A stretch of DNA of 64,000 nt from Dactylorhiza incarnata (Eukaryota > Streptophyta > Magnoliopsida > Asparagales > Orchidaceae). The position numbers were made by a program, and so were the translations under genes. Below the pieces are notes generated by a model that searched no databases, had not been told where the DNA came from, and was given only the letters and a program-made list of their open reading frames with translations. Shown piece after piece: positions 8,323-53,720 of this stretch. Numbering within the stretch: the first letter of the stretch is position 1; each line of letters begins with the position of its first letter. The stretch is from assembly GCA_033032865.1 (NCBI GenBank), contig JAWHQI010000028.1, forward strand, positions 5,599,001-5,663,000, in the 5' to 3' direction.

Positions 8323-11300
8323 CTAATATTTCCTTTTCTTTCCTGTATCTTTCTCATTGCTCTGTAGTTTCTGCTCTTGTCTTTCAAAATACTCGAATGG
8401 CTTTGGGATGTACTTATCAGGAATTGGAGGTGCATTGCTTAGCAATGTTCCTTCTTGTTGATGCTTTTTATACAATCTTCTTAAGGCTTCAGTTTTCTTA
8501 TGCTTGTCCCACTCACTTGAAGGGTAGTGTTTTGAGATGTCTTTAGCACTTTCACTAAAGTCTCTCCATGTAGACTCTACAATGTCTCTTGACCTTGGGC
8601 TTAAGAATTGAAGGTTTGGATCACTGGCCCACCCTTCATCTCTTTTTCTTTTGAGAGGCAATTCTTCATTTATCATCATGGTCTTCCTTCTCTGACTTGA
8701 TTCACCAATGCTCTGTAGAATTTCTTGGGTGCTTTGCTCCAACTTGGTGTTTAGAGTTTCATGAGTGAATTCATTTGAATTAATGCACCTAGTTATGATC
8801 ACCCTTTGACTATCAGTAATCTGTGTAGTTAGCTATCTAACTGCACTCTCCAGATTCTTATTTGCCAGTTGGTTTTGATGTATGGAGGTGTCAACTCTTT
8901 CACCCAGTGATTGTAGTGCATTCATATTACTGTCTACAGCTGTTCCAACTCTGGAGAACCAGTTGGTGATCTGAGTGTTGATGTGATCAATGTCTGCCCT
9001 TTTTTCATTCATCTGTGTTAACATGTCATCTTTGATTCCCCTTATTGCCATGCCCACATATTACTGATAGTTTTTTCTTTCCTAAATAAGCAAGTTCTTT
9101 ATTTGAACAACCAAGGAGCTTGGAGCTTGCTCTGATAGTGTTGTTGCTTTTGGAAGATCTTTCTCTTTCTCAGATACCTTCCCTTGAAGGTCTTCAGTCA
9201 AACTAGCTATGGTCTCATCATTAAGAGGATTATTATGGGAGACTTGTCTCTGATGATCCTCAATCTCTTTTGCAGCTTCTTTGTCTACAATCGAAATGAA
9301 ATCTCTACACAGATTCTCTTGTTCAATACTTCCCATCTCAGGGATAGTATCCTCAGTATCCATCTTGCAGCTAAAGCTGTCAATTAATATCAAAAACCGT
9401 AAATCGAACCGAAACCGAATCGGAACCGCAAAGAACCAGACCGAACCGTTCGCGAATTATTTGGGTTCCGGTTTGACTTTCGGAACCGTGAACAACATTG
9501 GTCCGGGTGTGGTTCTTTTATTTTATTATCCAGACCGGAACCGGAACCGCAATATACAAGTCTCAAGCGGTTTCAAGATTTTTAGAACCGATCCAAACCG
9601 GACCGAAGCAGAACCGAACCGCAACCCATTTATTATTATTATTATATTATTATTATTATTATTTTCTTATAATATATCTATAATATCTATACTTACTATT
9701 ATAGGTGAAACTGGTGTGGTTTGAACCCAAATCGCAATCTCAACAAAGGGGGTTGGTTTTGAACTGAACAAAATTGCACCGCACCAAAACCGTGCTGTAT
9801 AGTTTGACATTGATGCGATTTGGAGTCGGTTTTTGCGGTGTACTTTCGGTTCTTATACAGTCATATAATATATTTTCAATTTTACTCACATATTATTTTG
9901 AATTATTTTGTTTTAAAAATATAGCGGATATACAACTAATATTTAATAGTAATCATGAAAGATAAATCTAATTGTAGCTGATAAATTTGTTAAATTGAAT
10001 TAACTAATAATTTTTTCAAACAAAATTTTAAATGTAAAATAAGATTTCAAGAGCAACAATTCAAATTTCTTTACCCTATGTTGAGTCGTGGTCTTCAGCA
10101 ACATGAACATTATTGCATCAGCATTACACGATCGTGTTTTTTAAATTTATAAAATCGGTGCGGTCTGGTGCAATTTTGTGGTTTTGTGGTTTTAGTTTTG
10201 GTGTAACGCAAAATTCCTGCGCCCGGGCCTCAGACTTCGAAGTCCCACTTGCAAAAAAATGAACGCGCGGGTATACTTTTCTCCTCCGATTTTTTTATTT
10301 TTGACCTCCCCCATTCATTCCGCTAAATTTGGTTTTAATTCTAGTTGAAACCGATTGGAACCGGACCGAACCGCATAGAACTGGACCGAACCGTTAGTGA
10401 CCGGTTTGATTTTGGTTCTTATTGAACCATAACCGGAACCGTTAACACAACGATTCCAAAAATTATGCTAGAACCGGAACCAGAACCGGAACCGGTCAAA
10501 CCAAATATGGTTTTGGTTCTAATTTGAAGAACTGTTACCTTAGCGGTTCGGTTCACGGTTTTAGTAGAACCGGAACCGAACCGGAACCGTGACAGCTCTA
10601 GTTGTAGCTTCCTAGGTCTTCTTGGACAGCAGACTCAGTGTGAGTTGTTTCCTCAACCCCTGGAGTAAGGAGTTCATTATGAGACTCCCCCTCAAGAACA
10701 TCCACATCCTCGACAGGAAACACTGTCTCTTGGGCTGAGAGCTCAGCATGATTCTCCCCCTCAATTTGAGCATTTTTCTTTCTAGCAGAGGAGTCTTCAG
10801 AGATTGTCACAGTGGCAACCAAGGTCTTTACCTATGGCTCTTGATTTGGTGTGTTGTCACCACTTATAGATGAGTTGTCTTCACTTTCCCTGATCTCCTT
10901 CCCCGTCTTTGCAGTCTTGGGAATGACTTTCTCCCACCTCCCTAGAATCTTCAAGTCTATCTTCTTCATGTGATGGATGGGTGATCCCATCTTGTCATTC
11001 AGCTGAAGGGTGTTAATGAGATATAGGGATAGGATTCCTCCAAAGTTTGGTGCTTGGAGACTTCCCTGGATCCTTTTGAAGAGTAACTGAGCCCAATCAG
11101 TTTTCTTGCATAGAACTATTCTTGTCATTATCTCAAACATGTCCTTAGATATTTTGTCATGAGATCCAGGTTTGCATATCAATGTTTTGCCAGCGATATC
11201 TGCCAAAAGTTTTCCTCTTACATTGAAGTCAGCCTTTTTCAAGGTACGATATAATTTTTCTGTGTGGTTGCACCACTTCTTTGAAGTCGAGAGATCTTCC

Positions 11301-11612
11301 TCCGAGATCTCTTCCTCTATCTCGTCTCCTGAAAATCTAGGCAGATGGAGCGCCTTGGAAATTCCTTTTGCCGTCACTCTTAATAGGGTATTTCCAAACC
11401 TAGTTTTGATTGCATTTCTAGAAGTACTCATCTTGGGCTCAGCATAGAACTCCAGAAGTCCTCTTTGCATGATAGCAGTTGGCTCTAAGTGCACGTATTC
11501 TATCCCCACAGTATCAATTTGTCTGAGCGCTAACCTCATTGGCCTTGATGAATCCGCCGCGCACCAGCTCACATCCAGCATTGCAGGTGTCGTCATTCTT
11601 TACAGGTGCCAT
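8323..11612 (-). pseudogene. Element B accessory ORF, first (proximal) module, split by a hAT insertion
   Basis: The likely start is the ATG at 11612, giving MAPVKND... and ELVRGGFIKANE, which aligns with MAPKKEG...EIVRDGFLKAPE of module 2. A frameshift near 11530 moves reading to the ORF 10832-11596. Shared blocks are 'LLEFYAEPK', 'LHLPRF', KLLADIAGKTL, GSHDKISKDMFEIMTRI and 'KKTDWAQLLFKRIQ'. An acidic region follows (10609-10822, continuing 9082-9371 past the hAT). Then comes a helical segment with repeated Asn/Gln (8833-9057) and a basic C-terminus (8323-8802; SPRSRDIV, PKPFEYFERQ, ending in GKKRKY). It looks like a plant LTR-element accessory or env-like protein. No catalytic motif and no clear membrane segment is seen. 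Confidence 0.65.
9372..10600. mobile_element. Non-autonomous hAT element (1.2 kb)
   Basis: The ends are imperfect inverted repeats: TAAAGCTGTCA at the left and TAGAGCTGTCA read inward from the right. They are flanked by an imperfect 8-bp duplication, CTTGCAGC (9364-9371) and GTTGTAGC (10601-10608). Both subterminal regions are packed with AACCGGAACCGAACC-type motifs, typical of hAT transposase binding arrays. No transposase is encoded; ORFs in this interval are chance readings. It interrupts module 1 of element B. A TTA-rich microsatellite lies at 9630-9662. Confidence 0.8.
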
Positions 11613-12456: not shown

Positions 12457-12459
12457 CCA

Positions 12460-12890
12460 CACTACAAGAAAATAGACTTCTGGCCAGGGCAAATTGCCCT
12501 GGCAAAAAGTCCAAAACCGTGGCTAAAGAGTTCTTGCCACGGTCTAGCCACGGAAAAAATTCGTGACTAAAGTTCACGTGGAGAAAGAGTTTTAGCCACG
12601 GATTAACCGTGGCAAATAGTATTAGCCACCAAGAATGTCGTGGCTAATACCTGGACATTTATCCACGGTTTTCCCCCCGGCAAAAGCTTTTCAATTACGT
12701 TAAATAGACTATTTGCCACAACATTTTACCGTGGCAAATAATCTAATTATTAGCCACAATTTGAAACCCTGGCTAATGGTAATTTTGATATTTTTTAAAA
12801 AAATCTATTTGCCACAGTTTTAAACCGTGGCAAATAATTAATAATGTTTTTTTTAACTAGAAATTTGTGGCTAATATAACAATGAATATC
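12460..12890. repeat. CACTA left subterminal repeats
   Basis: A dozen or so variants of 'ttagccacgg' / 'ccgtggcaaat' in both orientations follow the terminal inverted repeat. The same unit is found in the right arm (26470-26690). Such arrays are the known binding platform of CACTA accessory proteins. Confidence 0.8.
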
Positions 12891-12938
12891 ACAGAACTTC
12901 AAAGGAGCCAAATGAACTCATAAGCATAAAAAATGATT

Positions 12939-12944
12939 TTTATT
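12939..12944 (-). promoter_or_regulatory. Possible polyadenylation signal AATAAA for a captured-gene transcript
   Basis: On the minus strand AATAAA sits within 'aatgaataaaaatc', about 235 bases beyond the stop of the thioesterase-like exon (13178-13180) and before the subterminal repeats. The placement fits the 3' end of a minus-strand transcript. The motif is common in AT-rich DNA, so this is tentative. Confidence 0.35.
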
Positions 12945-13177
12945 CATTAGTTTAGTTCAAATGTACAACTTCCCAGCTCAACTGAAGAATAACAACACCA
13001 ACTAATCTCCCCTCCCAATTCCTCTCCACCATTCTCCCATCTCCATATTTCTAAGCTTCTAATAACGAACATTAATGCTACATCAGTGAATCGAAACACA
13101 AGTGTATGTACAAAGTATGAAATCGTAACTTACTATGCATCCTCTAACTTAATATGCTTCCTCTTACTGTCAGTAGG

Positions 13178-13272
13178 TTAACTCGACAGAATTTTTGCAA
13201 CATGGGTAGCTGAAGCATCCATGCCATCAACATTATATGGACCATCTCTAGACAAATCCCCCTTGTCAAACC
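13178..13272 (-). pseudogene. Captured exon: acyl-protein thioesterase-like, second exon
   Basis: After an acceptor 'tttctatag', the exon reads FDKGDLSRDGPYNVDGMDAS, then ATHVAKILS and a stop at 13178-13180. This matches the segment of plant acyl-protein thioesterases (lysophospholipase-like alpha/beta hydrolases) that follows the FGGFP..AWFD block: FD-GDLSEDGPDD-EG-DASAAHVANLLS in family members I recall. The nucleophile motif (GFSMG) that would come next is absent, so the captured piece could not be catalytic. Joined to 13421-13490, the first codon is rebuilt as Trp, exactly as in the family. Confidence 0.8.
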
Positions 13273-13420
13273 CTATAGAAACGGTAAACATAAGTACAAA
13301 TAATCAATTGTAGATTTATAAGAATAAAAACTTAAAACATAAAACAATACAATAATTGGTTATACTTTAAACCAGACGAAGTTCTGCCTGAAAAGCCAGT
13401 ACTTAGATAAGTGAACTTAC

Positions 13421-13490
13421 ATGCATTTGAAGGAAATCCACCAAAAAAAGATACATGTCTAGCAGGGGCAGTTGGACATGTCCATTTTAT
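13421..13490 (-). pseudogene. Captured exon: acyl-protein thioesterase-like, first exon
   Basis: It is bounded by an acceptor 'cttatgtag' and a donor GTAAGT. It reads IKWTCPTAPARHVSFFGG then FPSNA, and ends one base into a codon. Plant acyl-protein thioesterases have the block KWICPTAP-RPV--FGGFP-TAWFD. The leftover T plus the GG that starts exon 13178-13272 gives Trp, keeping the AWFD motif and the frame. Both splice sites are therefore credible. The upstream Gly-Asp oxyanion region (HGLGD) was not found in the CACTA left arm. Confidence 0.8.
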
Positions 13491-13881
13491 CTACATAAGT
13501 AAATTTACACCACATGTTTAAGAAAAAAAGTTACTAGTTGGAAAACAAGGGATATAAACGTCCAGTCATATTTTTAAAGATAGGAGGAACATAAAGACCT
13601 GAAATCCGATGCTGAGTGGTGTGTTACAGTATCCGGTGCTTCGACGATTTTCATACAGACCTGAAATTCATAATCTTAACATGCTATGGCGACTGCATCT
13701 TTCCTTTTTAAAAAACTTGAAATATATTAACCACATGTTTGTATTTCACAGGAAATTAACCAGCAAGTGTCCTTCCATGTTCAATATCTCATTGTTGATA
13801 ACATTACTTTAATTATTGTGGGTGTTGGCCAATTTTAATTTACAAAAAAAGCGTACATGCAATCCACAGCAGACAACCAGC
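13491..13881. other. CACTA left arm, remaining non-coding part
   Basis: AT-rich. On the minus strand, 13598-13662 is bounded by 'tttcag' and GT and stays open, so it could be another short exon of a captured gene. I do not recognise its product. It ends at the insertion point of copia 2, with CCAGC (13877-13881) as left target-site copy. Confidence 0.4.
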
Positions 13882-14049
13882 TGTTGGAACATGGTTTTAT
13901 GCATCCCTTTAATTTGAGAATAACAAATCCTACTTGTATTTGATCTTGTTTGTCATTGTGTTTTTAACATGCAGGTTTGGACAGATATGACACCAGGTTG
14001 CTGCAATACTGGTCTGGCTCTATCCACAAGCAGAAGGATTGAAAGATGT

Positions 14050-14430
14050 CTAACGCCAGGCGTTAGGTCTTAACGTTTGGCATTAGCGTTCGACGGGATG
14101 GTCTGCCGATCGACGGGATGAGCTGTCGATCGATGGGATGGCTTGCCAACTGAATAAAAAGAGAAAGATGCTCAACGCCAGACGTTAGGAATTAACGACG
14201 ACGTTAACGATCGACGAATATGGCAAGGAGGAAGCAGCCGTGATTGAAGGACGAACTTTAGGAATGATTTGCCTCAACGCGTGCGTTAGCCTTAACGTCG
14301 GCGTTAGTATTGCCTAAAATAAACAATTCCTAAAGAACAGAATCTCTTTCCTCTTCTGAAGATCCGAGCCATCAATATGTTGCTATACATGGTCAATGCC
14401 CGACGTTAGAACTCAACGCCGACGTTATCT
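14050..14430 (+). promoter_or_regulatory. Copia 2 U3 palindrome array (TAACGcc..ggCGTTA)
   Basis: At least four paired copies of the near-palindrome (T)AACGCCxGxCGTTAG occur near 14053, 14173, 14275 and 14395, often in tandem pairs, with 'cgacgggatgg' repeats between (14090-14145). The 3' LTR has the same set. A further copy lies at about 20396, just after RNase H. Its location directly before the TATA box suggests enhancer or repressor binding sites. Confidence 0.5.
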
Positions 14431-14437
14431 CAAGTTC

Positions 14438-14444
14438 TATAAAT
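14438..14444 (+). promoter_or_regulatory. Copia 2 LTR TATA box
   Basis: TATAAAT in the context 'gttctataaattgg', matched at 22932-22938 in the 3' LTR. It is about 555 bp into the LTR, a usual place for the U3/R boundary. Confidence 0.6.
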
Positions 14445-15165
14445 TGGATGATTTCGACGTCTCTGACTACTAATTGATTTGAGCCATACTCCAGCACTCC
14501 AGAAACTCAATCAGAGCTGTATTTTCCAGAATTTCATCTCCCACACACATTTGAGCAAAGAATTCAAGGAGAATAGGATCAACGCCTTCTCAACGCGAAG
14601 AACACACGCTTCGACTTCAAGAACTTACAGCGTCATTCATCATCTCCAGAATTCTTCATATGGAGTTTTAGTTTATGTGTTCAAATATTTAGTTGTAACT
14701 TTTTATTATTTGCTTGGAAGTAAATTCGCCTCGTGTTGGCGACTAGGTCTGGGTAGGACTTAGGTGGCAATTCGTCTTGTGTTGGCAACTAGGTCTAGGA
14801 AGTAGATCTAGGGGGTGCTCGAGGACTTTTCTGGGTATAGGAAGGCTAGAGCGGCTTGAGGCCGGATCTGGGAAAGATCGGCTAAAGCCAACCGGTTCTT
14901 GGTGAGAAGAGTCGGTATAGAAAACAAAAAGGATATTTCATATTTCACCTTCGATTTCTAGCATTATAGAAATCACATATTTTGTAATCATAAATCATAA
15001 TGAAAATCATGTTCTTTCTAGTTTGTTTTAAATTTATTCACTCCACTTTAGTTTTGATTTAATTTGATTTATAGAAAAACAACAAAAGTTTTATATTAAA
15101 TAATCAAGTTTTAAAAACCCTTATTCACCCCCCCCCCCTCTAAGGGCGCCTCACGATCCAACAAG

Positions 15166-15181
15166 TTGTATCAGAGCTAGG
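15166..15181 (+). other. Copia 2 primer binding site
   Basis: TTGTATCAGAGCTAGG, two bases after the LTR, resembles the plant initiator-Met site TGGTATCAGAGC with one mismatch in that core. Confidence 0.8.
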
Positions 15182-15212
15182 TTATTCTAAAATAGTCTAA
15201 CAACCAGGAATA

Positions 15213-17138
15213 ATGACATCTCGTGATTTCGCTTTTCATGAAGGGCAAGGAATAAGTTGACCTCCACTTTTCACCGAAACTGACTACAATTATTAGAGAA
15301 CACGCATGCGTTATTTTCTAATCAATTTAGATCTAGATGTCTGGGCTAGTATTGAAACACCGTATACGACTCCTACTTATATTGTTGGGGAAGTAACCAT
15401 GGAAAAGCCTAAAGATAGGTGGGATGATGGAGATGAAAATAAATGTTAAAATAATGCTAAAGCCATGAATGCTTTATTTTGCGCTTTAGATAGGACTGAA
15501 TTTAATAGAGTTTGTGCTTGTGAAACTGCTTATGACATTTGGAATTTGCTTGAAATAACACATGAAGGTACCTCGCAGGTTAAAGACTCAAAGCTATTCC
15601 AACTGGAATCAAAATTTGAAAGGTTCGGGATGGATCCAAATGAGGACGTCGACTCAATGTATACTCGCTTCACCAAGATTGTCAACGCCTCAAAGATTGT
15701 TGGAAAAACATTCTCAAACGGTGACTTGGTGCGAAAGATCCTTCGGTCTCTTCCTCTAATGTTCAATCCAAAGGTGACTGCAATCTCCGAATCGCATGAT
15801 CTAAGGCGGCTTCGGATCGAGAGCCTCATTGGGAATCTCAACACCCATGAGGTCGAACTCAACATTCAAGATGAAGAATACAATAAGGAGCCAAAGAAGA
15901 AAGCCTTGGCACTAAAGTCAAGAAAAGAGGATGACGATGAGGAAGATGACGAGGAGATTCTCTTTGTGAAAAACTTCACAAAGTTCATGAAGAATCCAGA
16001 GAGAAGAAATACTTTTCGTAAGTACTTTCGAAAAGGAGCATCGTCCAAAAAGGAGAAAAAGGAAAAATCAAGCGACGAAGATGAAGAGCGACCTCCTCCT
16101 GAGTGCTTCCACTGCAGGAAGACCGGGCATATAAGAAGCCAATGCCCAAAATACTTGAAGGAACAAAAAGAAAAGCGGTATAAAGGAAAGGAGAAGAAGA
16201 AGGCCTTGAAGGCAACAACATGGGATGATTCTTCATCCGGATGCTCAAGCGAACCAAGTTCAAGTGAGGATAATGAGGCAAACTTGTGCCTCATGGGGAA
16301 GAACCAAGAATCAACTGATGATGAGTGCAGTGTCCAAAGCGACACTGAGGTAATCCCTTCCACTTATGATGATCTTTATGTTGAATATTTAAAAACGTGC
16401 AAATCGTTTGGTAGAAATTTAAAAGATCTTGATCTTCTTAAAACTGAGAATAAAATCCTTTTAAAACAAAATCAAAAATTAAATAAAGAAATAATGTCAT
16501 GTCAAAAGAATGACAATCATTTGACAAAGGCAAAGGAACTTGAAAACGATCTTTCTAAGGCTCTCTTCAACATCGAATCACTCGTGAAAGAAAAGAGAGA
16601 CTTAAAAAGAAGGTTGAAAATATCTCTTTCCCAAATTGAAAATGAAAAGAAAAATTTTGCAAAGATATGTGGAAATTTAGTAAGTGAAAACTTCGTCTTA
16701 AAAGCCCAAATAAATGATCTTAATGTGGCGATAAACAAATTTGGGGTTGGCCAAAAATCACTGGATATGATTTTGGGCAACCAGTGCCATGGATCTGCTA
16801 AGTTTGGGCTGGGATATGTTTCCAAAACCTACCGCCCAGGGTTGACTTCTAGCGCTGGCATTAGCTCTGCTTCCAGAAATCAAAAATATTTTCATAAAAA
16901 TATTTCCTTCACTCCCTCTACCTCTGTGTATACCAGCAAGGGTCAACAACAGTCTCTGAAAAAGGTCTCAACCCCTTTTGTTGCTTGTGCCAATTGTTTA
17001 TTTTTTGGGCACACCACGGACTCTTGCAGGAAGAAGGGAAAGCGCACCTTTAAGCAAATCTTGGTACCTAAGGTCTCCACCTATGTTATGGTAGGAACCT
17101 CATGGGTATTCGGATTTTCACTAAGTTTTTCTTCTTAG
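15213..17138 (+). pseudogene. gag: Copia 2 gag
   Basis: The likely start is the ATG at 15213 (MTSRDFAFHEGQ, also found as MTHHDLAFNEGQ in copia 3). Stops at about 15258, 15296 and 15447 leave an open stretch from 15465 of 557 codons. It contains a UBN2/retrotransposon gag capsid region (DIWNLLEITHEGT..., KILRSLP), an acidic stretch, knuckle 1 CFHCRKTGHIRSQC (residues ~213-226 of the open part), a second Ser/Asp-rich acidic part, a long Lys/Glu/Leu coiled coil (~residues 300-410), and knuckle 2 CANCLFFGHTTDSC (~508-521) followed by KQILVPK. Gag packages the RNA and forms the virus-like particle. The early stops should prevent function. Confidence 0.85.
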
Positions 17139-17555
17139 GTATGTTGGTAGGCTAAGGACAAAGAAGATATGTGGTACTTGGACTCAGGCTGCTCCAAGCA
17201 CATGACGGGCGATAAAGCAAAATTCCTTAGCCTCACCAAGAAAAAAGGAGGAACCGTAACGTTTGGTGATAATGGAAAATGAAGAATATTGGGCACCAGT
17301 ACAGTGGGTAACAACTCTTTCTCTCTTACTAATGTCTTATTTGTAGAAGGCTTAAAACATAACTTAATCTCTATTAGTCAATTATGTGATAAAGGTCTTA
17401 ATGTGTTATTTGAGTCCTCTACAAATTTGTGCAAAATCATTGATCCCAAGTCTAATAATATAGTACTCACTGCACCAAGAATTCATAATGTTTATTTAAT
17501 TGTTTTTCATGATCTATCACGTGCATCTCTTAAATGTCTTATATCTAAAAAATGA
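17139..17555 (+). pseudogene. Copia 2 protease
   Basis: It continues in the gag frame after TAG at 17136-17138. The aspartic protease core WYLDSGCSKHMTG lies at 17168-17206. It is followed by TVTFGD, and then by LTNVLFVEGLKHNLISISQL and LCDKG, typical of copia protease before integrase. A TAG at 17148 and a TGA at 17280 break the frame. The catalytic Asp-Ser-Gly itself is intact. Confidence 0.8.
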
Positions 17556-18700
17556 AGAATTGAATTATGGCATAGGCGTCTTGGTCACTCTAGCACCAAG
17601 TTGATTTTAAAATTATCAAAAAATAAAATTATTAGAGGATTGCCAATACTAAATGGAAACCTTTCTTCCTTATGCTCTCCATGCCAAAAAGAATTTTTTT
17701 CAAAAACATTGTTTAAAAGTAAAATTGAAGTATCCGCCTCAAGACCATTGCAACTAATTCACATGGACCTTTTTGGGCCAATTAGCACTTGTAGCCTTGG
17801 TGGTAAAAAATATACTTTTGTATTAATTGACGATTTTTCAAGATTCGCGTGGACTTTATTTCTTACCTCCAAATCCGATTCATTTTCTGAATTTTCAAAA
17901 CTTTGCAATCGCATTCAAAATAAATTAGACTTAAAAATTAAATGCATAAGGTCGGATCATGGAGGAGAATTTGAAAATGATAGTTACACCACTTTCTGCA
18001 ATAATCTAGGTATTAAACACTAATTTTCCGCTCCACGCACCCCCAACAAAATGGTGTGGTGGACTAGAAAAATAGAACCCTTCAGGAACTCGCACACACT
18101 ATGTTATCTGAGTATGGGTTGCCTAGATCTTTTTGGGCTGAAGTGGTAAATACATCTTGTTATGTTATAAATCGTATCATGCTTCGCCCTATTTTGAAAT
18201 TAACTCCATACGAATTATATTACCAAAAGAAACCTAATGTATCGTACTTTCATGTTTTTGGATGTAAATGTTTTATCTTAAATACCAAAGATGCATTAGC
18301 TAAATTCGCTGAAAAATGCGATGAAGGAATCTTTCTTGTCTACTCATCAACTAGCAAGGCATATAGGATATATAATAAAAAATCTAAAAAGGTTGAAGAA
18401 TCTATTCATGTTAAGTTTGATGAACTTGTGCCTTGTGTAGATACTAATATTATAGGAAAAGAAGATGAACCCCCTTCACATTTGGAGCTTGATGATGATG
18501 AACCACTTGGAAAGGACAAAGAAGTAGTGTCGGTGCAAGAAGACTTCGTGCCTCCAAGCGAGCTTAGATTCACAATAGATAATCCAAGGGATCTTGTCAT
18601 TAGAGAACCGTCAAGAGTGGTAACTACACGTTCTGCCTTTAATGAATCTTTTTCCAATTTATGTTTTGTTTCCAAAATTGAACCCAAAAACATTTCTACG
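17556..18700 (+). pseudogene. Copia 2 integrase
   Basis: The HHCC zinc region is visible as WHRRLGHSS and CSPCQ. The core begins with the first catalytic Asp in IHMDLFGP (about 17760). The second Asp is in RSDHGGEFEN (about 17960). The third acidic residue should lie in the V-V-E-R-K-N block. There the codon reads GAC and is followed by TAG, and indels near 18020-18065 shift the frame. The C-terminal part (18101 on) has GLPRSFWAEVVNTSCYVINR and the FHVFGCKCF, AYRIYN blocks. Inactive. Confidence 0.82.
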
Positions 18701-19550
18701 GCTTTAAATGATGAATTTTGGTTTATTGCTATGAATGAAGAATTAAATCAATTTGCACTCAGTAGGGTTCGGAAACTTGTTGAAAGACCATCTAATCACC
18801 CGGTCATAGGTGTAAATGGATATTTAAAAATAAATTAGATGGTGATTCTATGATCACAAGGAACAAAGCTAGATTGGTAGCACAAGGTTATTCTCAAATT
18901 GAGGGGGGTAGACTTTGATGAAACATTTTCACCCGTAGCTCGCCTTGAATCAATTAGAATTTTTCTTGCATTTGCAAGTTATAAAAAGTTTAAATTATTT
19001 CAAATGGATGTAAAAAGTGTTTTCTTAAACTGGATAATTAAAGAAAAAGTCTATGTAGAACAACCCCCCGACTTTATAGATGAAAAATTTCCAAATCACA
19101 TCTATAGATTAGAAAAGGCTCTTTATGGTCTAAAACAAGCGCCTTGTGCATGGCATGCACGACTAACATCTTTTTTATTAAAGCACGGTTATAAAATGAG
19201 TAGTGCCGACAACACACTCTTCATTAAGCTTATTGATAATGATATAATAATTTTACAAATATATGTTGATGATATTATTTTTGGAGCCATTAATGAAGAG
19301 TTGTGTAATAAAGTAGTACTAGTAATGCAAAATGAATTTGAGATGAGTCTAGTTGGTGAATTTTCTTGGCTTTCAAATAACCCAAAGAAATGATAGAATC
19401 TTCATATGTCAATCTAAATACGTACATGATATGCTAAAACGATTTGGATTTGAAAACTTAAAACAAGCTAGTACTCCAATGAGCGCGTCACTAAAATTAG
19501 GAAAAGATGAAACCGGAATTTCCATTGATCAACTTTGTATAGAGGAATGA
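18701..19550 (+). pseudogene. Copia 2 reverse transcriptase
   Basis: It begins near FWFIAMNEELNQF. The KWVFK-type block is garbled by a frameshift (18815-18840). VDFDETFSPVARLESIRI, FQMDVKS and LYGLKQAPCAWHARL follow. The catalytic box YVDDIIFG is intact (about 19262-19285). A frameshift at about 19370 interrupts the FLGFQI block. Motif order and spacing are those of copia RT. It could not make a full polyprotein. Confidence 0.85.
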
Positions 19551-20201
19551 TTGGATCCTTATTGTACCTTAGTGCATCTAGACCCGACATTATGTTTGTC
19601 GTATGCCTATGCGCTAGATTTCAAGCAAACCCAAAAGAATCTCATTTAAAAGCGGTAAAACGAATTTTTTAGATATCTAATTGGCACACCTAAATTAGGA
19701 CTTTGGTATCCAACTAATGATTCCTTTCTATTACATGGGTATTCCGACTCGGATTATGTGGGTTGTTCTTTAGATAGAAAAAGCACTAGTGGCACATGTC
19801 ATTTCTTAGGTCCTTCTCTAGTTGCATGGTCAAGTAGAAAACAAAATTTTGTTGCCCTCTCCACCACCGAGGCAGAATATATTGCACTAGGAAGCTATTG
19901 TGCCCAAGCCTTATGGATGACTCAAACATTAGAAGACTTCGGAGTTCATCTAACTAACATAGAACTAAAGTGTGACAACAAGAGTGCTATTGATTTAACC
20001 AACAACCCCGTTCATCACTCAAGATCCAAACACATAGACATTAGACATTATTTCATTAGGGATCATATAAAAAAGGAACATGTTCATGTAAACTTTATTG
20101 GAACTGAATCACAACTTGTGGACATCTTTACCAAACCTTTACCAGATTCCCACTTTGCTCTACTTAGACTAGAATTAGGAGTTTTAGATATAACAAATTG
20201 A
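19551..20201 (+). pseudogene. Copia 2 RNase H
   Basis: The first part is frameshifted near 19665. The last 147 codons (19758-20201) are open and read DRKSTSGTCHFLG, WSSRKQNFVALSTTEAEY, KCDNKSAIDLTNNPVHHS, RSKHIDIRHYFIRDHI, and FTKPLPD before the natural stop. The Ser-Thr-Glu-Ala-Glu and Cys-Asp-Asn catalytic surroundings are present. Confidence 0.85.
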
Positions 20202-22362
20202 AAATCACCACATGCTATGTCTCCTTACAAAAAAATTAAATAGAAAAGATAAAAATATGCTTAAATAAGCCTTCAAATCAGTTCAACTTTCTCTGAAATT
20301 TCTACCCTAAGAAGGTCTATGTATATACTCCCTATTTCAAAGAATTTTTTTCCAAAAATCTCAAAAAATTGAGTACTCTTTCGGAGTTAACTAGTTAATG
20401 CCAGACGTTAGCCTTTTTCTCCAGAACAAAATTCTGCTTTCACTAGTATATTTTTGGTATTTTCTACTATTTTTCTCACATTATTTTGTCTGATTTCAAA
20501 TTATTTTGGTATTAATTTTGTTGTTTTTATTTCAAAATACAAAAAAAAAAAATTTCAAATATTTCAAAATGATCAAAAATATGATTTTGTTATTTGTTTT
20601 ACTTTAACTCCTTACAAAATTATGATTTGACTATAAAACTTCACAAGAGCAAACATCTTTGTTATTTTGTTTCCAATGGTCAAAATATATTTTGGCATAC
20701 TCACAAGGATTTTCTTCAATGTCTAATTTTAATTTCAAATTTTCTAAACATTGTTTTTGTCATGCCTTGACCTTAATCTGATTATGTGCAATGAAATAGT
20801 CTATAGATAATTGTGTATGATTGCATAACATGCCTCTAAGTATGAGTAATGTTTTATGATAATCAATGATTCATACACTCATTATTTTGATAATCTATAT
20901 GTGTTCATAATCTTAGTCTTGCATGATTGTGTCGTGTAATAGTTTTAACACATTGAGTTGTATGTCTAAATTACCTACACTGTCTTTTAAACATAAATTT
21001 CTTGCACACAAAGAAGTGTTACTCAAAATAAAAAATATTTGCAACAACAAGTGAATTCGGTGACATCCTTTGGCCCAAAATAAAAAGATGAAATAAAAAT
21101 CCAAAGTTAACTCCACCAAGCACTACTCACCCTCCTGATAAATCTTAATGAGCATTGTGAGGTTGAGCACCTTGGAAAGAATTGTAAAGTGTCTTGTGCA
21201 AACATATTGTACACTGGATCACTAAAATAAAATTTGTATACAAATGCTTATGTGATCCCCCAAGAAATACTTCGCTTTGTGATAAGTCTTAATGAGCATT
21301 ATGTGGGTGAAGCACCTTGGTAGTTGTACTTATGTTTTGTGCTTTGAAATTTTATTCTAAATATGATGTGTGAAAGTAATTATAAGATTGCATTCTTAAT
21401 GTTGTTGTTACTATTTCATTACATGTCATATGTTTTGATTATTTCACTTGTATACGTTTTTCAAAACACCTTATGCACATATCATTGATTTCCATAAAGC
21501 TTCTACTCACGAGAATTGGATCCTAATGCAAATTTACATAATTCTCTCAAAACTTAAGTAAAAGCACTAGATTGCAATGCATGATTTCTACAATGTTTTC
21601 TTTACTTGAAATACGAATTTGTTACATTGTAGTTATTATCTTTATGAATATGTTGATTCATGCTTGCCTATTGGTTATGAAAATTTTCAAATCTAAAATG
21701 CTCACATGTAAAGAGTCTAGATATATTGTTGAAATGGTCAAATTATTACAACAATATAAATCTTAATAACTTTGTTTTATCTTTCCGCATTCCTATTTTA
21801 CTGTGTGGTTTTTACCATGTGTTCTCATGCTTATTTCTAAAGATTTGTCTTTCACTTGTACTTGTCAAACAACATTGCATTCTTTTCCAACAAGTAATAT
21901 TCTACTTAAAATTTAATTTGAAAAAACAAGTGGTAGAATTCCTTTGGTTAAATCTTGGACTGTTGTTCTTTCACGCTTATCATATATTTGTCGTTGTGCC
22001 ACTCTCTCCCTTAGCTCGATCACGACTTAACTTATGTTAAAACAAAACTCTTACTTCCTCTCTTAGTTATGTTCTACCTTTTGCCCTCTCTTTTTTTTAC
22101 ACTCCACCCACTTTTGCTAATAACAAAAGGGGGAGAATAAATTGATAAATCACAAGGAGTCGGATTCACTAGATTAAGGGGGAGCATAAATCTAGTCTAT
22201 GAGTGCATACACTAAGGGGGAGCACTTAAGTAGGGGGAGCACAATGTTAAGAGAACTATAACTCTTATTATTATCTCTATGATTGCTTTGTGTCATATAT
22301 CCTTCTAAAAACACACATATTATATATGATTATGATTTATCTCTATTGGATTTGTTATTATC
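20202..22362 (+). other. Copia 2 3' non-coding region
   Basis: 2.2 kb of AT-rich DNA with no credible gene. It holds two ~60-bp direct copies of the conserved 'gataa(a/g)tcttaatgagcatt' motif, followed by 'agcaccttgg' (near 21137 and 21288). Purine-rich 'gggggag' blocks near 22128-22245 precede the polypurine tract. An extra LTR-type palindrome lies at 20396. Confidence 0.7.
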
Positions 22363-22375
22363 AAAAGGGGGAGAT
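22363..22375 (+). other. Copia 2 polypurine tract
   Basis: 'aaaagggggagat' directly precedes the 3' LTR; copia 3 and copia D have the same type of tract. It would prime plus-strand DNA synthesis. Confidence 0.85.
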
Positions 22376-23655
22376 TGTTGGAACATGGTTTTCTGCATCC
22401 CTTTAATTTGAGAATAACAAATCCTACTTGTATTTGATCTTATTTGTCATTGTGTTTTTAGCATGCAGATTTGGACAGATATGACACGAGGTTGCTGCAA
22501 TACTGGTCTGGCTCTATCCACATGCAGAAGGATTGAAAGATTTCTAACGCTAGGCATTAGGTCTTAACGCTGGGCGTTAGCATTCGACGGGATGGTCTGC
22601 CGATCGACGGGATGGGCTGCCGATCGACGGGATGGCTTGCCGACTGAATAAAAAGAGAAAGATGCTCAATGCCAGGTGTTATGAATTAACGTCGGCGTTA
22701 ACGATCGACGAATATGGCAAGGAGGAAGCAGCCGTGATTGAAGGATGAACTTTAGGAATGATTTGCCTCAACGCGTGCGTTAGCCTTAACGTCGGCGTTA
22801 GTATTGCCTAAAATAAACAATTCCTAAAGTGCAGAATCTCTTTCCTCTTCTGAAGATCCGAGCCATCAATATGTTGTTATACATGGTCAACGCCCGGTGT
22901 TAGAACTCAACGCCGACGTTAGCTCAAGTTCTATAAATTGGATGATTTTGACGTCTCTGATTACTGATTGATTTGAGCATTACTCCAGCACTCCAGAAAC
23001 TCAATCAGAGCCGTATTTTCCAGAACTTCATCTCCCGCACACATTCGAGCAAAGAATTCAAGGAGAACAGGATCAACGCCTTCTCAATGCGAAGAACACA
23101 CTATTCGACTTCAAGAACTTACAGCGGATTTCATCATCTCCAGAATTCTTCATATGGAGTTTTAGTTTATGTGTTCAAATATTTAGTTGTAACCTTTTAT
23201 TATTTGCTTGGAAGTAAATTCGCCTCGTGTTGGCGACTAGGTCTGGGTAGGACTTAGGGGGCAATTCGCCTCGTGTTGGCGACTAAGTCTAGGAAGTAGA
23301 TCTAGGGGGTGCTCGAGGCCTTTTCTGGGTATAAGAAGGCTAGAGCGGCTTGAGGCCGGATCTGGGAAAGATCGGCTAAAGCCAGCCGGTTCTTGGTGAG
23401 AAGAGTCGGTATAGAAAACAAAAAGGATATTTCATTTTTGCCTTCGATTTCTAGCATTATAGAAATCACATATTTTGTAATCATAAATCATAATGAAAAT
23501 CATGTTCTTTCTAGTTTGTTTTAAGTTGATTCACTCAACTTTAGTTTTGATTTAATTTGATTTAAAGAAAAACAACAAAAGTTTTATATTAAATAATCAA
23601 GTTTTAAAAACCCTTATTCACCCCCCCCCCTCTAAGGGCGCCTCACGATCCAACA
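22376..23655 (+). repeat. Copia 2 3' LTR
   Basis: 1280 bp, nearly the same as 13882-15163, including the palindrome array (22540-22925), TATA box (22932-22938) and a C10 run (23621-23630). Differences are scattered and largely transitions. It ends CCAACA before CTAGC. Confidence 0.92.
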
Positions 23656-24792
23656 CTAGCTCATTCATATTCTGCTGGCTATTAAAATGATTGGATCCAA
23701 ATTTGACAGAACAATAAAGGGATATTATATTCATGATCATCTGAGCAGTATAATCTGCCAACTGAAGGCCTTCATATTGTGATCATCTAATCAATATTGT
23801 GATCACATAGATATATTTCTGGAAGGTAATAAGTTGTTGGAAACATTCTTATTCATTGACAGAAAATCGCTTTTGAACTGTATGGATCATGGTCCATTGT
23901 AGTAAAAAGTACAGTAATAAAATTCAAGTTTTTTAATGATAGTGAAAATTTAACAATTTCATGACGATACGCAATCATCAAAAAAATTTAAACTCACAAC
24001 AATTCAAAACATATTGCAATGAAATAAAGTCAGGATGCTATACTGTAGAGAGATGCAAGAGAAATCATATAGAAATATCAGAAACAATACAGAAATAACA
24101 ATTAAATAATTTCTCCTGGAAGTTAAGAAAACATCAAAGTTTGAATATTTTTTTCACTAGGAGTGGCCCTCCCCGCACCACCTGCTTCCATCTCACGCGA
24201 TTAGTTTTATTTTAATATCAAAACACAATTAAAACATAGAGTATGTCTAAAATATACTAATGGCCAAGCAATGGTTAAGGATCTTAGTGAAAAAACTATT
24301 AATTTGATTAGTCTTCTTAGGAAAACTCAAAAAAAGTTCCATCGCATGTGATCATATTTGTTTAGTAGTGAATGACTGAAATTTTGCTAAGAAGATCATA
24401 CCTGAAATTTGGCCTAGAAAGAAAATTAGAAACTCATGGAATCTATTTTTCCAGACCAAGAACATGTATTTAAATGAGGGGAATCAATCTAAAGCATACA
24501 CATTAATAAAATTAACAACATCTTGTAAATGTACAAGAATGCTTAACAAGCTATTCAGTTAATCAAAGAACTCCAAAATACTAAATTCATATAAAACTGG
24601 CAGAAGCAAAATTTATATAGAAGAATGTACCCTATTTGATATGTAGTAGCTCTATCTATGCCAGTAGCAGCCAGCCACCAACAACAATTGCAAATTTTGG
24701 CCACCAACAACAATTGCAACCTATCAATAAATTAAAAACACCAATCAAGTAGAATATATAAGACTCATAGCGCAAATCTTTTTCTACTGCAT
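23656..24792. other. CACTA right arm, unassigned interior
   Basis: AT-rich, with no long ORF. It includes a tandem 'ccaccaacaacaattgcaa' pair near 24674-24718. It could hold further introns or short exons of captured genes; I can assign none. Confidence 0.4.
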
Positions 24793-24861
24793 TCAAACAA
24801 CGAATACCTCAACACCAACACGACTTGCCATAGCAACCTCCCGGGCAATTAACATCAAAAC
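24793..24861 (-). pseudogene. Captured exon: UMP (uridylate) kinase-like, second exon
   Basis: After acceptor 'tttattag' it reads VLMLIAREVAMASRVGVEV, then F-V-V and a stop at 24793. Plant and bacterial UMP kinases of the amino-acid kinase fold have the block (V)xxIAREVA--xRLGVEVAIVVGGGN at this place. The Gly-rich nucleotide-binding loop that should follow is missing, so no activity is possible. Joined to 24979-25114 the frame is kept, Lys then Val, where the family has -DPK-V-. Confidence 0.75.
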
Positions 24862-24978
24862 CTAATAAAGAAGAGTTATTAACTGCATATACATGCTCTT
24901 ACAGTTTTGGCAATAATAAAATACGGCCTTATAAAAATAATTCAAACAGCCAAGCAAACAGGAGAGGGGAGAGCATAC

Positions 24979-25114
24979 TTTTGTCCGTGAACCAATCCCA
25001 ACCAATGCAGAACCACTAATTTTCAAAACTGCTCTCTTCCACCTGGGATTTGATAGTGGTTTTAATTTAAAGCTACTTGATAAGCTAGCTGAAACAGGTG
25101 AAGTGGCGGGATAT
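24979..25114 (-). pseudogene. Captured exon: UMP kinase-like, first exon
   Basis: Acceptor 'gcttgtgcag' and donor GTATGC bound 136 bp. The exon reads YPATSPVSASLSSSFKL..., then NPRWKRAVLKISGSALVG and IGSRTK. The block P-x-W-K-R-x-x-L-K-I-S-G-x-A-L is the N-terminal phosphate-binding segment of UMP kinase. The Trp-Lys-Arg form is that of plant proteins. Ser-rich sequence before it fits a linker or transit-type region. Its end and the next exon fit without a frame change. Confidence 0.78.
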
Positions 25115-25289
25115 CTGCACAAGCAATCAACCAAATTCATGCAACACAATGAGGTTCATCATTCATGAGGTTCATCAGTGGTACCAAAAATACAACCTAT
25201 ATTTATCAGTAAACATTGACATGACAAAAAAAATATGCATAATCAATGAGATTCATTATTCATTGTTCTTGTAGAACAACAGTGCATAC

Positions 25290-25342
25290 TTCCTTTGATT
25301 TTCAAGCTGTGATGTCAAAAGATCATTGTATCCCACAAAAAT
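25290..25342 (-). pseudogene. Captured exon: possible BRAP2/BRIZ-like coiled-coil exon
   Basis: Bounded by acceptor 'attgtggcag' and donor GTATGC. The 53 bp reads IFVGYNDLLTSQLENQR plus two bases. The string YN-LL-SQLENQR resembles the coiled-coil of plant BRCA1-associated (BRAP2-type) RING proteins. The two leftover bases plus the first base of exon 24979-25114 make a Lys codon in frame, so a chimeric reading frame of at least three exons exists. Its origin is less certain than for the neighbouring UMP kinase exons. Confidence 0.5.
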
Positions 25343-26170
25343 CTGCCACAATAGTGAGAATATGATTCAACAAATAAGTCAAAGCATATTTGAAGTATTT
25401 ATTACTCCTTGGAGTGGCAAAAACTCCAACGAATATGTAGAATAGAGAAAATAGAAAGGGGTAAAGAAAGCTGGCAAGAACAAAAATCATATAAACACAC
25501 TTACATACAAACACACAAACATACATAAACACACACTTACATACAAACACACAAACATAAACACATACATAAATATACACATACAACCACTCATACATAA
25601 ACACACACACACGCACACACACACACACACACAAACACATAACATAAACACACTTACACACATACAACCGCACATTTTCATACACAAACATAAACACACA
25701 ATTACACACATACAACCACACATGCACACACACATACAAACACATACACACATACACCAATACACACACATACACACATAAACAAATACACACACACACA
25801 CATACACACATAAACAAATACACACACACATACACAAATAAACAAATGCACACACATACACAAATACACACACATACACACATACACAAATAAACAAATA
25901 CACACCTACACACATACACACACAAAATACACACATACACACAAAATACACACACATACACACAAAATACACACATAAACACACACAAAATACACACACA
26001 TAAACACACACACACACACACACACAAAATACACACACATAAACACACAAAATACACACACACACGCACAAAAACAAATACACACAGACATATACGCACA
26101 CACACACACACAAATATACATAGTGAAAGATGAAATCAATATCATACAAACATACATAGTATGTGATACC
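25343..26170. repeat. Long CA/CACATA microsatellite within the CACTA right arm
   Basis: From about 25490 to 26130 the plus strand is almost only 'acacacatac' and 'cacaaaatac' variants, with no unit in perfect register. All reading frames stay open because of base composition, so the Cys/Val-rich ORFs here are artefacts. On the minus strand it would be the first intron of the captured-gene transcript. 25343-25490 has no recognisable content. Confidence 0.85.
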
Positions 26171-26469
26171 TCGAGGCAGGGCGGGATCTCCAGCTGCAGG
26201 TAGAGTCGAAGATGAGGTGAGGTCACGGAAGGGAGAAGATTCGAAGTCGCTGAAGATCGACGGAGGTAAATCGCTGAAGATCGAGGTCACAGGAGGGAGA
26301 AGAGTTGAAGTCATTGTAGATCGTCGGAGGTCGTCGAGGTCGAAGTTGCTCGCTAGAGAAGAGTCCAAATTGCTCGCGGGAGAAGCTTGTGGGCGGACCG
26401 ACAACGTGATTAAGGTAGAATGCAAATGCACGAGTAGATCGCGAATACATATGCGGATGGCCATGGCTA
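26171..26469 (-). other. Possible 5' exon of the captured-gene transcript
   Basis: GC-richer than its surroundings. On the minus strand it is open and Ser/Pro/Asp-rich (repeats like 'SIFSDLPPSIFSDFESSP') and ends at a donor-like CTCGAG|GTATCA. Tandem 'gaagatcg(a)' units of ~30 bp explain the repeats. It has the position and composition of a first exon. Its exit phase does not match exon 25290-25342, so either another exon intervenes or it is not coding. Confidence 0.35.
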
Positions 26470-26698
26470 ATACTTTAGTATTAGCCACGTTAAACAAAAA
26501 TCATGGTTAATACCTTAATATTAATCACGCTTTTTTCCTCACGATAATACTTAAGTATTAACCACGATTTTTGCTTGTCGTGGCTAATACTTAAGTATTT
26601 GCCACGGTTTTGTAACCCTGGCTAAAACTAATGTATTAACCATAGTTTTGGAACCCTGGCAAAAAAAAGTGTAGCTAAAAATTATTTTTCTAGTAGTG
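26470..26698. repeat. CACTA right subterminal repeats and terminal inverted repeat
   Basis: Repeated 'ggctaatact' and 'gccacgg' motifs run up to the terminal CTAGTAGTG, mirroring 12460-12890. Confidence 0.8.
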
Positions 26699-26701
26699 CC
26701 A

Positions 26702-27224
26702 CGGGACTTCGTTCTAAATTGAGCTTGTTCTCCCGGGACTTAATTGTCCTATCCTGAGTTTCAGTCTTCCTCTGAAATAGGATAAGTTCATTGGTCAATT
26801 TAATCACCTCCTTGGTCATCTCACCGATTTGAGATCTGAATGGCTTGAGGATCCTAATTTCCTCAGCCTGAGATTTGACCAACTTTTTTCTCTTCTTGAG
26901 AATAACCAAGAGAATACCATATTGTTCCAATAAATCAGTATGGTCCTTATTATTGTAGGATGAGCAGTCTTCTGCTTCACCATCAACATTGCTTTCACAA
27001 GATGATGAGCAATCATCTGATGCACTTTTGTTATTTTCAATCGAAGAAGATAATGAAAATATGTGCGGAGTGCATACCTGTGCAGGATGTGAATCATCCT
27101 GATCTTCCTCATCAGATAGGGCTACACGCCTATAGAACTCCTCATCCTCAGGTTCACTATCTGAGAGAGTGAGAGGTGCCCTTATCCTTCTTCTAGCAGC
27201 AGAGCTGCCTTCATCTTCAGACAC
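26702..27224 (-). pseudogene. gag: Element B gag, N-terminal part (acidic plus coiled coil)
   Basis: The ORF starts MSEDEGSSAARRRIRAPL. It is strongly acidic and Ser-rich for ~100 residues, then Lys/Glu/Leu-rich, with heptad-like spacing to the CACTA junction. Its last few codons in the present sequence come from the CACTA end. The order acidic, coiled coil, CCHC is that of the C-terminal half of copia 2 gag. The UBN2 capsid region and first knuckle are missing. Without CACTA the frame runs on into 12278-12456. Confidence 0.6.
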
Positions 27225-27536: not shown

Positions 27537-29172
27537 TGTTAGTTCAAGATAGTCTAATCACCTAAAGGGTGGGGGGGGGGGGGGGGGGAATAGGTGTTTC
27601 AAATGTTTTGGTCTTCTTTAGATTATTGTCTGTTTTAGATTAGAGATATACAGACTAGAAGCACACCACAGAAAATACACAACAATTTATAGTGGTTCCC
27701 CAGTTAAGGGTACATCCACTTTCCCCCTCCACCTATCTAGCAGTGTGCTAGACTAGGCCAACTCCTTCAATCTCAGATCCAACAGATCTTATAACTCAGG
27801 CACAAAGGCTCTACAACTCAGGCACAAAGGCCATACAACTCAGATCTGCCAGAGATCCTACCTCGGGTTCTATTAACCCTACAACTCAGGCACAAAGACC
27901 CTATAGCTCAGACACTCTGGCCCTACAACTCAGCTCAAAGAGTCCTACATCTCAAGCACTCTAGCCCTACAACTCAGACTCAAAGAGTCTTACAAAAAAT
28001 ATGTTGTTTTATAAGGTTGAAGAATACTCTACACAGCTCTGGAGAGTTCTTCTGAAGACTGATGCAGATGGCCTCTGGACTTGGAGAGAAAGCTTTAAGA
28101 GATTTTTACTGATGCACGAAAGCTTCTCTTCTATTCTTTTCTTCTTTCTGTAACACAACTTACCAGTCGATGGTGCTTGATTGGGACTTAGAGAACTGAG
28201 AGTATGAGTGTATTGTTCTCACAAAATTGTTCCTTCTTCTTACATGCAGCTGCTACGTGTTTCGATTCTGTTCTCTGTAATGCGTTGTCAATTAGGGCAC
28301 GCACTTTGTCTTTTTATATGACAAGGCCTTCTAACGGTCTATTCTGAGCAATCTTTATTGTCAGAAGCTCATTCCTTAATGACATCCACTGATTGGTCTC
28401 TTAGACGACGACATTAAATTCAGACAACGCATTTCAAAAAATCTCGGTCTGTCTCGATGATATGAGCAGCATCTCGACGACGGAACTCGCTGTCTCAGCG
28501 ATCCATTTGGGACATTAGACATTTCTTCAAGTCTTCAGAAATCTTCCCCAGAGGAAGATATCTCGATGATATGGAAAATCTCGGCTACTTATGCAGTCAC
28601 GACGACATGAAGTCTTCTCGTCGAGATCATCTTGTCAATATGAGGTCTTCTCACCGATATCGTTGAGATCATTCTGACTACTAGTTCAGCTGCAAACTGT
28701 CTCCACAATCTCTTACTTAGTCTTCAAGGTCATATAACCTCTTTACGGCGATATGTTTTCTTAGTCAGATACTTAAGAATGTTGAAGAACTTCAACACGC
28801 CAGAATTTTCAATGATATCATGATGTGATTCTTGTTGTCACGATGATACGTTGACTTGGTTGATTCTGCTTATTCTCATAACGATATCGTCATGTGTACT
28901 TTGTTGACACAATGATATCGTCATGTTATTCTTATCATCACGACGACAACTGTCTTATTTCTTCTGTTGTCTTCTGCGATCCCAGCGATATCGTCGTGTG
29001 CATCTTGTTGACACGACGATATTTGCCTTAGTCATTTTTTCTTGATCTTTATACATTATACTTAGTATGTATGATGTTCTAACCTGCACATGTCACATCA
29101 AATACAAATTGTACTTATCATTGGCTTGAGGACTTCTCCAAATCTGGAACATTGTGGGCAGTGTTCCCAGCA
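27537..29172 (-). repeat. Element B 5' LTR
   Basis: 1636 bp, homologous over its full length to 3562-5177. It has an 18-base G run at 27571-27588 where the partner has 'gagagggagg'. Decayed ACGATATCGT palindromes occur at 28870-29025. It ends CCCAGCA before the ATCTC duplication. Confidence 0.9.
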
Positions 29173-51790: not shown

Positions 51791-52717
51791 GGGTTACCCC
51801 CGCAATGAGAAGTAGTCTTCCAGATTGAACTTGCTCATGGAGCTCGACCGGTATCCCGAGCACCTTATCGGATGGCCCCAAGGGAACTAGCTGAGCTCAA
51901 GATACAATTACACGAGTTAATTGATGCAGGTTTCGTTCGTCCAAGTACCTCGCCCTGGGGAGCTCCAGTACTATTTGTCAAGAAGAAGGATGGATCCCTG
52001 CATCTCTGTATCGATTACAGGGAACTAAATAAGCTCACTATCTGAAATACCTATCCCCTACCTAGGATAGACGAATTGTTCGATCAGTTGCAAGGCGCGG
52101 CCATCTTCTCCAAAATGGATTTAAGGTCCGGCTATTATCAACTCCGAGTACGAGAAGAAGACATCCCCAAGACCGCTTTCAGCTCCCTCTATGGACTTTA
52201 TGAATTTATGGTAATGCCGTTCGGGCTGACCAATTCCCCATCCGCCATCATGGCTCTTAAGAATAAGGTGTTTGAACCTTTCCTAGACCACTTCGTGATC
52301 GTTTTTATAGACAACGTACTTATTTACTCGAAGAACAAGACGGATCATGCTAGGCATCTCCAAATGGTATTACTTAAGTTACGGGAACACTCGCTCTTTG
52401 CAAAGTCCAGTAAGTGTGAATTCTGGATAGAGGAAGTCGGTTTCCTTGGGCACACGATCAAAAAGAACGGGGTAGCAGTAGACCAAGCCAAGATACAAGC
52501 GGTGCGAGACTGGCCACCACTTAAGTCAGCGGCAGATATTAGGAGTTTCCTTGGTCTTGCTGACTACTACCGCAAGTTCGTAGAAGGATTTTCTAACCCC
52601 TCACCTCCCTCACCAAGAAGGATACAACGTTTCAATGGACTCCCGAATGCGAGGCAGCATTCGCGGAACAAAAGAACCGACTAATATCGGCTCCAATTCT
52701 GACACTCCCCTCAGGCA
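51791..52717 (+). pseudogene. Gypsy E reverse transcriptase
   Basis: Same frame as protease, with TGA at 51806 and 52043. Blocks are [18 protein letters not shown], then [56 protein letters not shown] and the [16 protein letters not shown] blocks. The catalytic box reads [10 protein letters not shown]: the second Asp codon is AAC at 52313-52315 instead of GAC/GAT. A frameshift near 52598 precedes the F insertion. Two independent kinds of damage make it inactive. Confidence 0.88.
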
Positions 52718-53483: not shown

Positions 53484-53720
53484 TCTCGAAGGCGACATTT
53501 ACTTCTCGTAGGAATTATTTCTCGAAGGCAACATTTCTTTCCCGTAGGAATTATTTCTCGAAGGCAACATTTCTTTCCCGTAAGAATTATTTCTCGAAGG
53601 CAACATTTCATTCCCGTAGGAATTATTTCTCGAAGGCAACATTTCTTTCCCGTAGGAATTATTTCTCGAAGGCAACATATCTTTCCCGTAGGAATTATTT
53701 CTCGAAGGCAACATTTCATC
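53484..53720. repeat. 36-bp tandem array in F LTR
   Basis: About 6.5 units of 'ttctcgaaggcaacattt' plus 'ctttcccgtaggaattat'. The other LTR has the same array at 59842-60078. Because 36 is a multiple of three, several frames stay open, with 12-residue repeats on both strands. These ORFs are not genes. Confidence 0.85.

Follow-up and report, generated by a model that had tools for sequence, protein, structure and literature searches.

A 64,000-nucleotide stretch of the Dactylorhiza incarnata genome (assembly GCA_033032865.1, contig JAWHQI010000028.1, forward-strand positions 5,599,001 to 5,663,000; hereafter the window) harbors a CACTA transposon at positions 12460-26698, which is very probably a non-autonomous Pack-CACTA element carrying genomic pieces of three host genes, namely BRAP2, a trihelix-UMP kinase and an acyl-protein thioesterase (APT), subsequently split by a Copia retrotransposon and decayed. 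The CACTA ends, the target-site duplication, the three gene pieces, the introns retained in two of them, the nested Copia element and the lesions in the coding sequence are seen directly in the DNA. The gene pieces follow one another along the minus strand in the order BRAP2, UMP kinase, APT, and the length of the transposon minus its Copia insert amounts to ~4.5 kb. Coordinates of all features are collected in Table 1.

The CACTA element and its insertion site

Assignment to the CACTA superfamily rests on three features found together: (i) inverted terminal repeats of the CACTA type, with CACTACAAGAAAAT from 12460 at the left and, on the opposite strand, CACTACTAGAAAAA from 26698 at the right; (ii) a 3-bp target-site duplication, CCA, on either side; and (iii) arrays of subterminal repeats at both ends. 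Counted in either orientation, T[T/A]GCCAC is found at 13 sites within the left 441 bp and at three within the right 298 bp, as compared to none in 12901-13881 and one in 23656-26400 (together 3726 bp of non-Copia interior). Segments of the two arrays resemble each other (76% over 75 bp and 81% over 48 bp). At the scale of the 64-kb window, no second copy of this transposon was detected at E 1e-3.

The insertion site was reconstructed in silico by joining 300 bp from each flank with a single CCA. One minus-strand frame of this sequence remains open from its start, through the junction and for ~60 codons further, each of the five remaining frames being interrupted by several stops; because the frame stays open through the junction, the target was probably an open reading frame (ORF). 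Neither of the two flanking ORFs that were scanned (10832-11596 and 26682-27224) matched any Pfam family.

Class assignment within the superfamily depends on the content of the element. Its unassigned parts yielded 23 stop-free pieces of at least 35 residues, and a Pfam scan of all 23 revealed no transposase family and, with respect to further captured genes, only chance-level similarities (TM250, E 0.08; DinI, E 0.14; Cytochrom_B559a, E 0.1), bearing in mind that plant genes lacking Pfam domains escape a scan of this kind. ORFs of at least 150 residues inside the element lie in the Copia insert, run through the AC-rich tract or enter from the right flank. Thus, no transposase gene of its own was found, and the coding DNA that it does contain belongs to unrelated host genes (APT, UMP kinase, BRAP2). 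The initial annotation of this stretch had described a Pack-CACTA transposon at 12460-26698 with CACTA ends, a CCA duplication and subterminal arrays, split by a Copia element between its UMP-kinase and APT parts; all of this was recovered here, the Pack-CACTA reading being sustained by the ends, the 3-bp duplication, the lack of any transposase family among the pieces scanned and the presence of three unrelated gene pieces, two of which retain introns, on one strand.

The nested Copia element (9.8 kb), which has UMP-kinase exon 3 on one side and the APT exons on the other, contains Gag, SH3-like and reverse-transcriptase families and is bordered by 5-bp flanks (CCAGC/CTAGC) alike in four of five bases. 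Its long terminal repeats (LTRs) are 95% identical (Kimura two-parameter distance, K2P, 0.050), which corresponds to an age of ~1.9 million years under an assumed rate of 1.3e-8; since the Copia element is nested within the CACTA element, this LTR age suggests that the latter is at least ~1.9 million years old. A 22-nt inverted pair with 91% complementarity (13708-13729 and 23915-23936, ~430 bp apart without Copia) was also observed and is possibly a small miniature inverted-repeat transposable element (MITE) split by Copia, or a chance occurrence.

Table 1. Coordinates (window numbering), strand and supporting evidence for the CACTA element and the features within and around it.
Feature	Positions	Strand	Evidence or remark
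CACTA transposon, non-autonomous by content	12460..26698	- (strand of gene pieces)	Terminal inverted repeats CACTAC.AGAAAA, CCA duplication, empty-site frame
Left target-site duplication, CCA	12457..12459	.	
Right target-site duplication, CCA	26699..26701	.	
Left terminal and subterminal repeat array, TTAGCCACGG-like units	12460..12880	.	
Right terminal and subterminal repeat array	26461..26698	.	
BRAP2 (BRCA1-associated protein, RING/ZnF-UBP) exon piece; possible donor 25289	25286..25342	-	Similarity to P0043
Trihelix-UMP kinase exon 1 of captured piece	24979..25114	-	
UMP-kinase exon 2 of captured piece	24808..24861	-	
UMP-kinase exon 3 of captured piece, with an 18-nt stretch present twice and a frameshift	24631..24720	-	
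APT exon A	13421..13490	-	Similarity to 6avy, P0015
APT exon B, in-frame stop at a position occupied by Glu in P0015	13168..13272	-	Similarity to 6avy, P0015
Open stretch with ATG 26464; possible donors GT 26169 (phase 1) or 26155 (phase 0)	26170..26464	-	No Pfam match
Copia LTR retrotransposon nested in CACTA	13882..23655	+	LTRs 13882-15163 and 22376-23655
AC-rich microsatellite-like tract inside CACTA, ~620 bp	25495..26112	.	

Pieces of three host genes

Among the matches listed for the UMP-kinase piece are 14 proteins, all bearing flowering-plant names, with Dendrobium nobile as the best match (E 1.7e-21, 74%); the first six comprise five from orchids (Dendrobium nobile, Phalaenopsis equestris, Vanilla, Platanthera and Dendrobium thyrsiflorum) and one from Asparagus. 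PF13837, which we take to be the family named trihelix DNA-binding domain, is present in 13/14 of these proteins, PF00696 in 13/14, and both in 12/14, and by predicted domain content the relatives are of a fusion type combining a trihelix DNA-binding domain with a UMP kinase. Comparison with PDB returned uridylate kinases in all seven matches listed, with weak scores (best E 0.013). The exon structure required some revision: exon 1 stands as initially annotated (24979-25114), being three residues shorter than in the relatives; exon 2, originally drawn as 24793-24861, ends before the GT at 24807 and not at the TGA beyond; and exon 3, previously missed, was found by tblastn of the 14 proteins and is present for 12 of them (not for P0005 and P0011). 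The piece keeps 23 of the 25 columns that are invariant in the 14 plant proteins (42/47 when compared with the first six alone). A leave-one-out control applied to eight of the 14 yielded six proteins that kept all columns, with 25/27 for P0002 and 25/26 for P0004; such counts are too small for a statement on selection, whether present or absent.

The two APT exons join via a tryptophan codon split T/GG. Together they are similar to PDB chain 6avy (E 3.6e-20), which bears the name acyl-protein thioesterase 2 and which we take to be the maize enzyme, and to the Nepenthes protein P0015 (70%, with the query covered in full), the sole candidate in that search. Similarity upholds the proposed exon A (13421-13490); the proposed exon B (13178-13272) was ten bases too short, its donor GTAAGA placing the end at 13168. 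A 19-bp unit repeated in 2.3 tandem copies (13126-13168) finishes at the donor side of exon B, possibly the boundary of the captured piece.

The BRAP2 piece was analyzed using a bait composed in part of the window's own peptide, for which 37 proteins were listed; each of the 37 carries one or more of three Pfam families (zinc-finger-UBP, RING and BRAP2), and the named ones with an organism shown are from plants. In both Dendrobium catenatum BRAP2 proteins, YNDLLTSQLENQRKY agrees with the window over 15 residues without a mismatch, and the piece shares 16 of 19 residues with one of them (P0043; E 1.4e-4 against the whole window). The pattern YN..L..QL..QR was found in two of the 37 proteins, both from Dendrobium. 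Together with the ranking of the UMP-kinase matches, the BRAP2 identity points to an orchid host. A bait shaped by the window peptide favors BRAP2 matches of this kind; the Dendrobium sequence is independent of the bait. Similarity to BRAP2, tentatively assigned to 25290-25342 in the initial annotation, is confirmed and continues for four bases beyond the proposed border, to 25286. These extra bases may match by chance, with 25290 as the native exon border, or the piece may have been cut within an exon. The BRAP2-UMP kinase fusion matched no Pfam family.

The statistical weight of these similarities was assessed on 500 shuffled versions of the non-Copia element, with dinucleotide composition preserved, that were searched by tblastn with P0001, P0015 and P0043. 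Real scores of 84.3, 48.1 and 35.8 bits, respectively, compare with best shuffled scores of 25.4, 26.9 and 26.2 bits, and for each of the three proteins none of the 500 shuffles reached the real score. The thioesterase and UMP-kinase matches are therefore significant, and the proteins matched are plant cellular proteins, which argues against the exons being part of a conserved CACTA transposase gene. Another reading, that the similarities are due to chance or to genes of the transposon itself, could appeal to the short BRAP2 match and to Pfam scores below curated cut-offs, and is refuted for APT and UMP kinase by the protein matches and the shuffle control, with each of these genes represented by two or three exons in the correct order and frame except for the named lesions; its overall probability is negligible.

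AG/GT borders, claimed from the outset, were found at all 12 proposed exon boundaries (acceptors AG 6/6, donors GT 6/6), a tally weaker than it appears because the borders were chosen partly for AG/GT. On a simple seven-point consensus, the donors score 3 (BRAP2), 4, 3 and 4 (UMP-kinase exons 1-3) and 6 and 4 (APT exons A and B). BRAP2 leads in frame (phase 2) into UMP-kinase exons 1-2, and the frame is lost in exon 3; no continuous frame runs across all three pieces, owing to the frameshift in exon 3 and the stop in APT exon B.

Upstream of BRAP2, the open stretch 26170-26464 is a possible leader or first exon, as judged by its reading frame. From its ATG at 26464, the donor at 26169 was rejected: it is in phase 1, scores 3/7 and enters BRAP2 out of frame, where the reading stops. 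With the donor at 26155 (GTATGT, 4/7), a 206-residue frame extends via BRAP2 and UMP-kinase exons 1-2 into exon 3. Six in-phase GT sites were tested (26431, 26398, 26290, 26155, 26119 and 26107) and all six reach UMP-kinase exon 2; since all of them open into BRAP2, donor 26155 constitutes weak evidence. BRAP2 and UMP-kinase exons 1-2 could thus share a chimeric frame, which does not reach APT and is not specific. The initial annotation proposed a chimeric transcript from near 26470 to ~12940; this proposal is weakened by the phase of donor 26169, the one suggested by its layout, although 26155 is in phase, and by the broken coding in UMP-kinase exon 3 and APT exon B.

Origin of the element and rival explanations

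In the most probable scenario, the CACTA element would have been mobilized in trans by an autonomous relative and would have acquired DNA from three host genes (BRAP2, trihelix-UMP kinase and APT). The introns remaining in the UMP-kinase and APT pieces indicate capture from genomic DNA, introns included, and not from mRNA. According to the published model for Pack-CACTA, related elements insert in tandem and an aberrant excision takes the intervening DNA (PMC8903248, PMC13317346). Acquisition most likely followed this route, which would allow successive captures and, by analogy, fits the presence of three pieces at separate places. The element would then have inserted into an open reading frame, duplicating CCA, and would later have been split by the Copia retrotransposon before decaying. 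The trans-acting transposase, this route and any transcription are what we infer from the DNA; a spliced chimeric RNA may have been produced before the Copia insertion and decay. Such a chimera, starting with a leader derived from the right end of the element (ATG 26464, donor 26155) and running through BRAP2 into the start of the UMP kinase (~206 residues), is a doubtful though conceivable product, as predicted from the reading frames.

Several points weigh against the Pack-CACTA interpretation. The BRAP2 piece has just 19 residues and is the weakest of the three. The Pfam scores of the other two lie under the curated cut-offs (Abhydrolase_2, E 0.001, for the APT piece; AA_kinase, E 0.24, for the UMP-kinase piece), and NCBIfam returned nothing for either. 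The scan for transposase families would overlook a remnant confined to pieces of fewer than 35 residues. Finally, capture by some other nested element is conceivable.

This last point leads to the rival explanation that survives best, and which we nevertheless regard as unlikely, namely that a Helitron or a Pack-MULE assembled the gene pieces and then entered a plain non-autonomous CACTA element serving as a container. The ends and target duplications of Pack-MULEs and Helitrons differ from CACTA termini with their 3-bp duplication. Host-gene pieces are also carried by Helitrons and Mutator-like elements (PMC13317346), and in the present element APT is separated from BRAP2 and UMP kinase by Copia rather than adjacent to them. 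On the other hand, among the longest 25 of 203 inverted pairs, none encloses all three pieces except the repeats of the CACTA ends (no search for Helitron or Mutator ends was part of this comparison), and the 22-nt pair flanking Copia encloses no exon.

A further alternative, quite improbable in our estimation, is that of a functional chimeric gene with an mRNA running from the right end via BRAP2, UMP kinase and APT and giving rise to a fusion protein or a regulatory RNA. The placement of all pieces on one strand, the in-frame passage from BRAP2 to UMP-kinase exons 1-2, the AG or GT at every border and the 206-residue frame via donor 26155 (4/7, as compared to 3-6 for the six exon donors) are in line with this possibility, as is the soybean element Tgm-Express1, a CACTA transposon whose captured exons are spliced into chimeric RNA (PMC1947982). 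It is opposed by the exon 3 frameshift and the APT exon B stop, by a 9.8-kb Copia element in the path of the transcript, and by the donors themselves, 26169 being out of phase and 26155 having been picked from six open in-phase GT sites.

Other features of the window and relation to known elements

Elsewhere in the window, a repeat of ~1.45 kb with 87% identity lies on either side of the transposon (3562-4995 and 27537-29000, where the query stopped); it has internal repeats ~90 bp apart, and the two copies are probably parts of a repeated element. A minus-strand ORF at 6889-7677 shows sub-threshold similarity to Transposase_32, a putative plant transposon protein (E 1.4e-6; 28.8 bits vs. a cut-off of 45), and 11025-11215 is similar to 7049-7239 (70%). 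A plus-strand reverse-transcriptase fragment (RVT_1, E 2.2e-25) occupies 52076-52684, and weak tblastn matches correspond to tandem SRRNYFSKATF units at 53510-53680 and 59859-60038.

With regard to the Pack-CACTA interpretation, the closest parallels come from other flowering plants. Tgm-Express1 of soybean carries five host-gene fragments spliced into chimeric RNAs, some of them with chimeric reading frames; both it and the present element are of CACTA type and contain fragments of unrelated host genes with exons and introns, whereas Tgm-Express1 is inserted within a host-gene intron and its splicing is proven at the RNA level, the present element being known from its DNA, and the captured genes, host and target differ between the two (PMC1947982). 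With the Pack-CACTA (Pack-TYPE) elements of Arabidopsis, rice and maize it shares CACTA ends, including CACTACAA as in the Arabidopsis query, the lack of a detected transposase, internal coding DNA and pieces from more than one locus, the latter feature being greatest for Pack-CACTA in maize (PMC8903248). It differs from them in its orchid host, in being represented by one copy in the 64-kb window and in its larger size, which is due to the nested Copia. Fragments of host genes are likewise found in Pack-MULEs and gene-capturing Helitrons, with chimeric transcripts produced in some cases (PMC13317346). Among the open-access literature matches listed, subscription journals being outside this scope, no case of an orchid Pack-CACTA was found, and the word "orchid" is absent from the main text of both the Pack-TYPE survey (PMC8903248) and a 2026 review (PMC13317346).

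Overall, the element of Dactylorhiza incarnata belongs to an established class, the gene-capturing CACTA transposons, of which it is an ordinary representative in a copy that looks decayed, and it leaves the accepted picture of how such elements work unchanged. Its contribution is a clear case of exon capture from three genes by a CACTA transposon, apparently in orchids. If the chimeric transcript from its right end did exist, it would represent a new combination of exons made by a transposon, perhaps still produced by sister copies without the Copia insertion.

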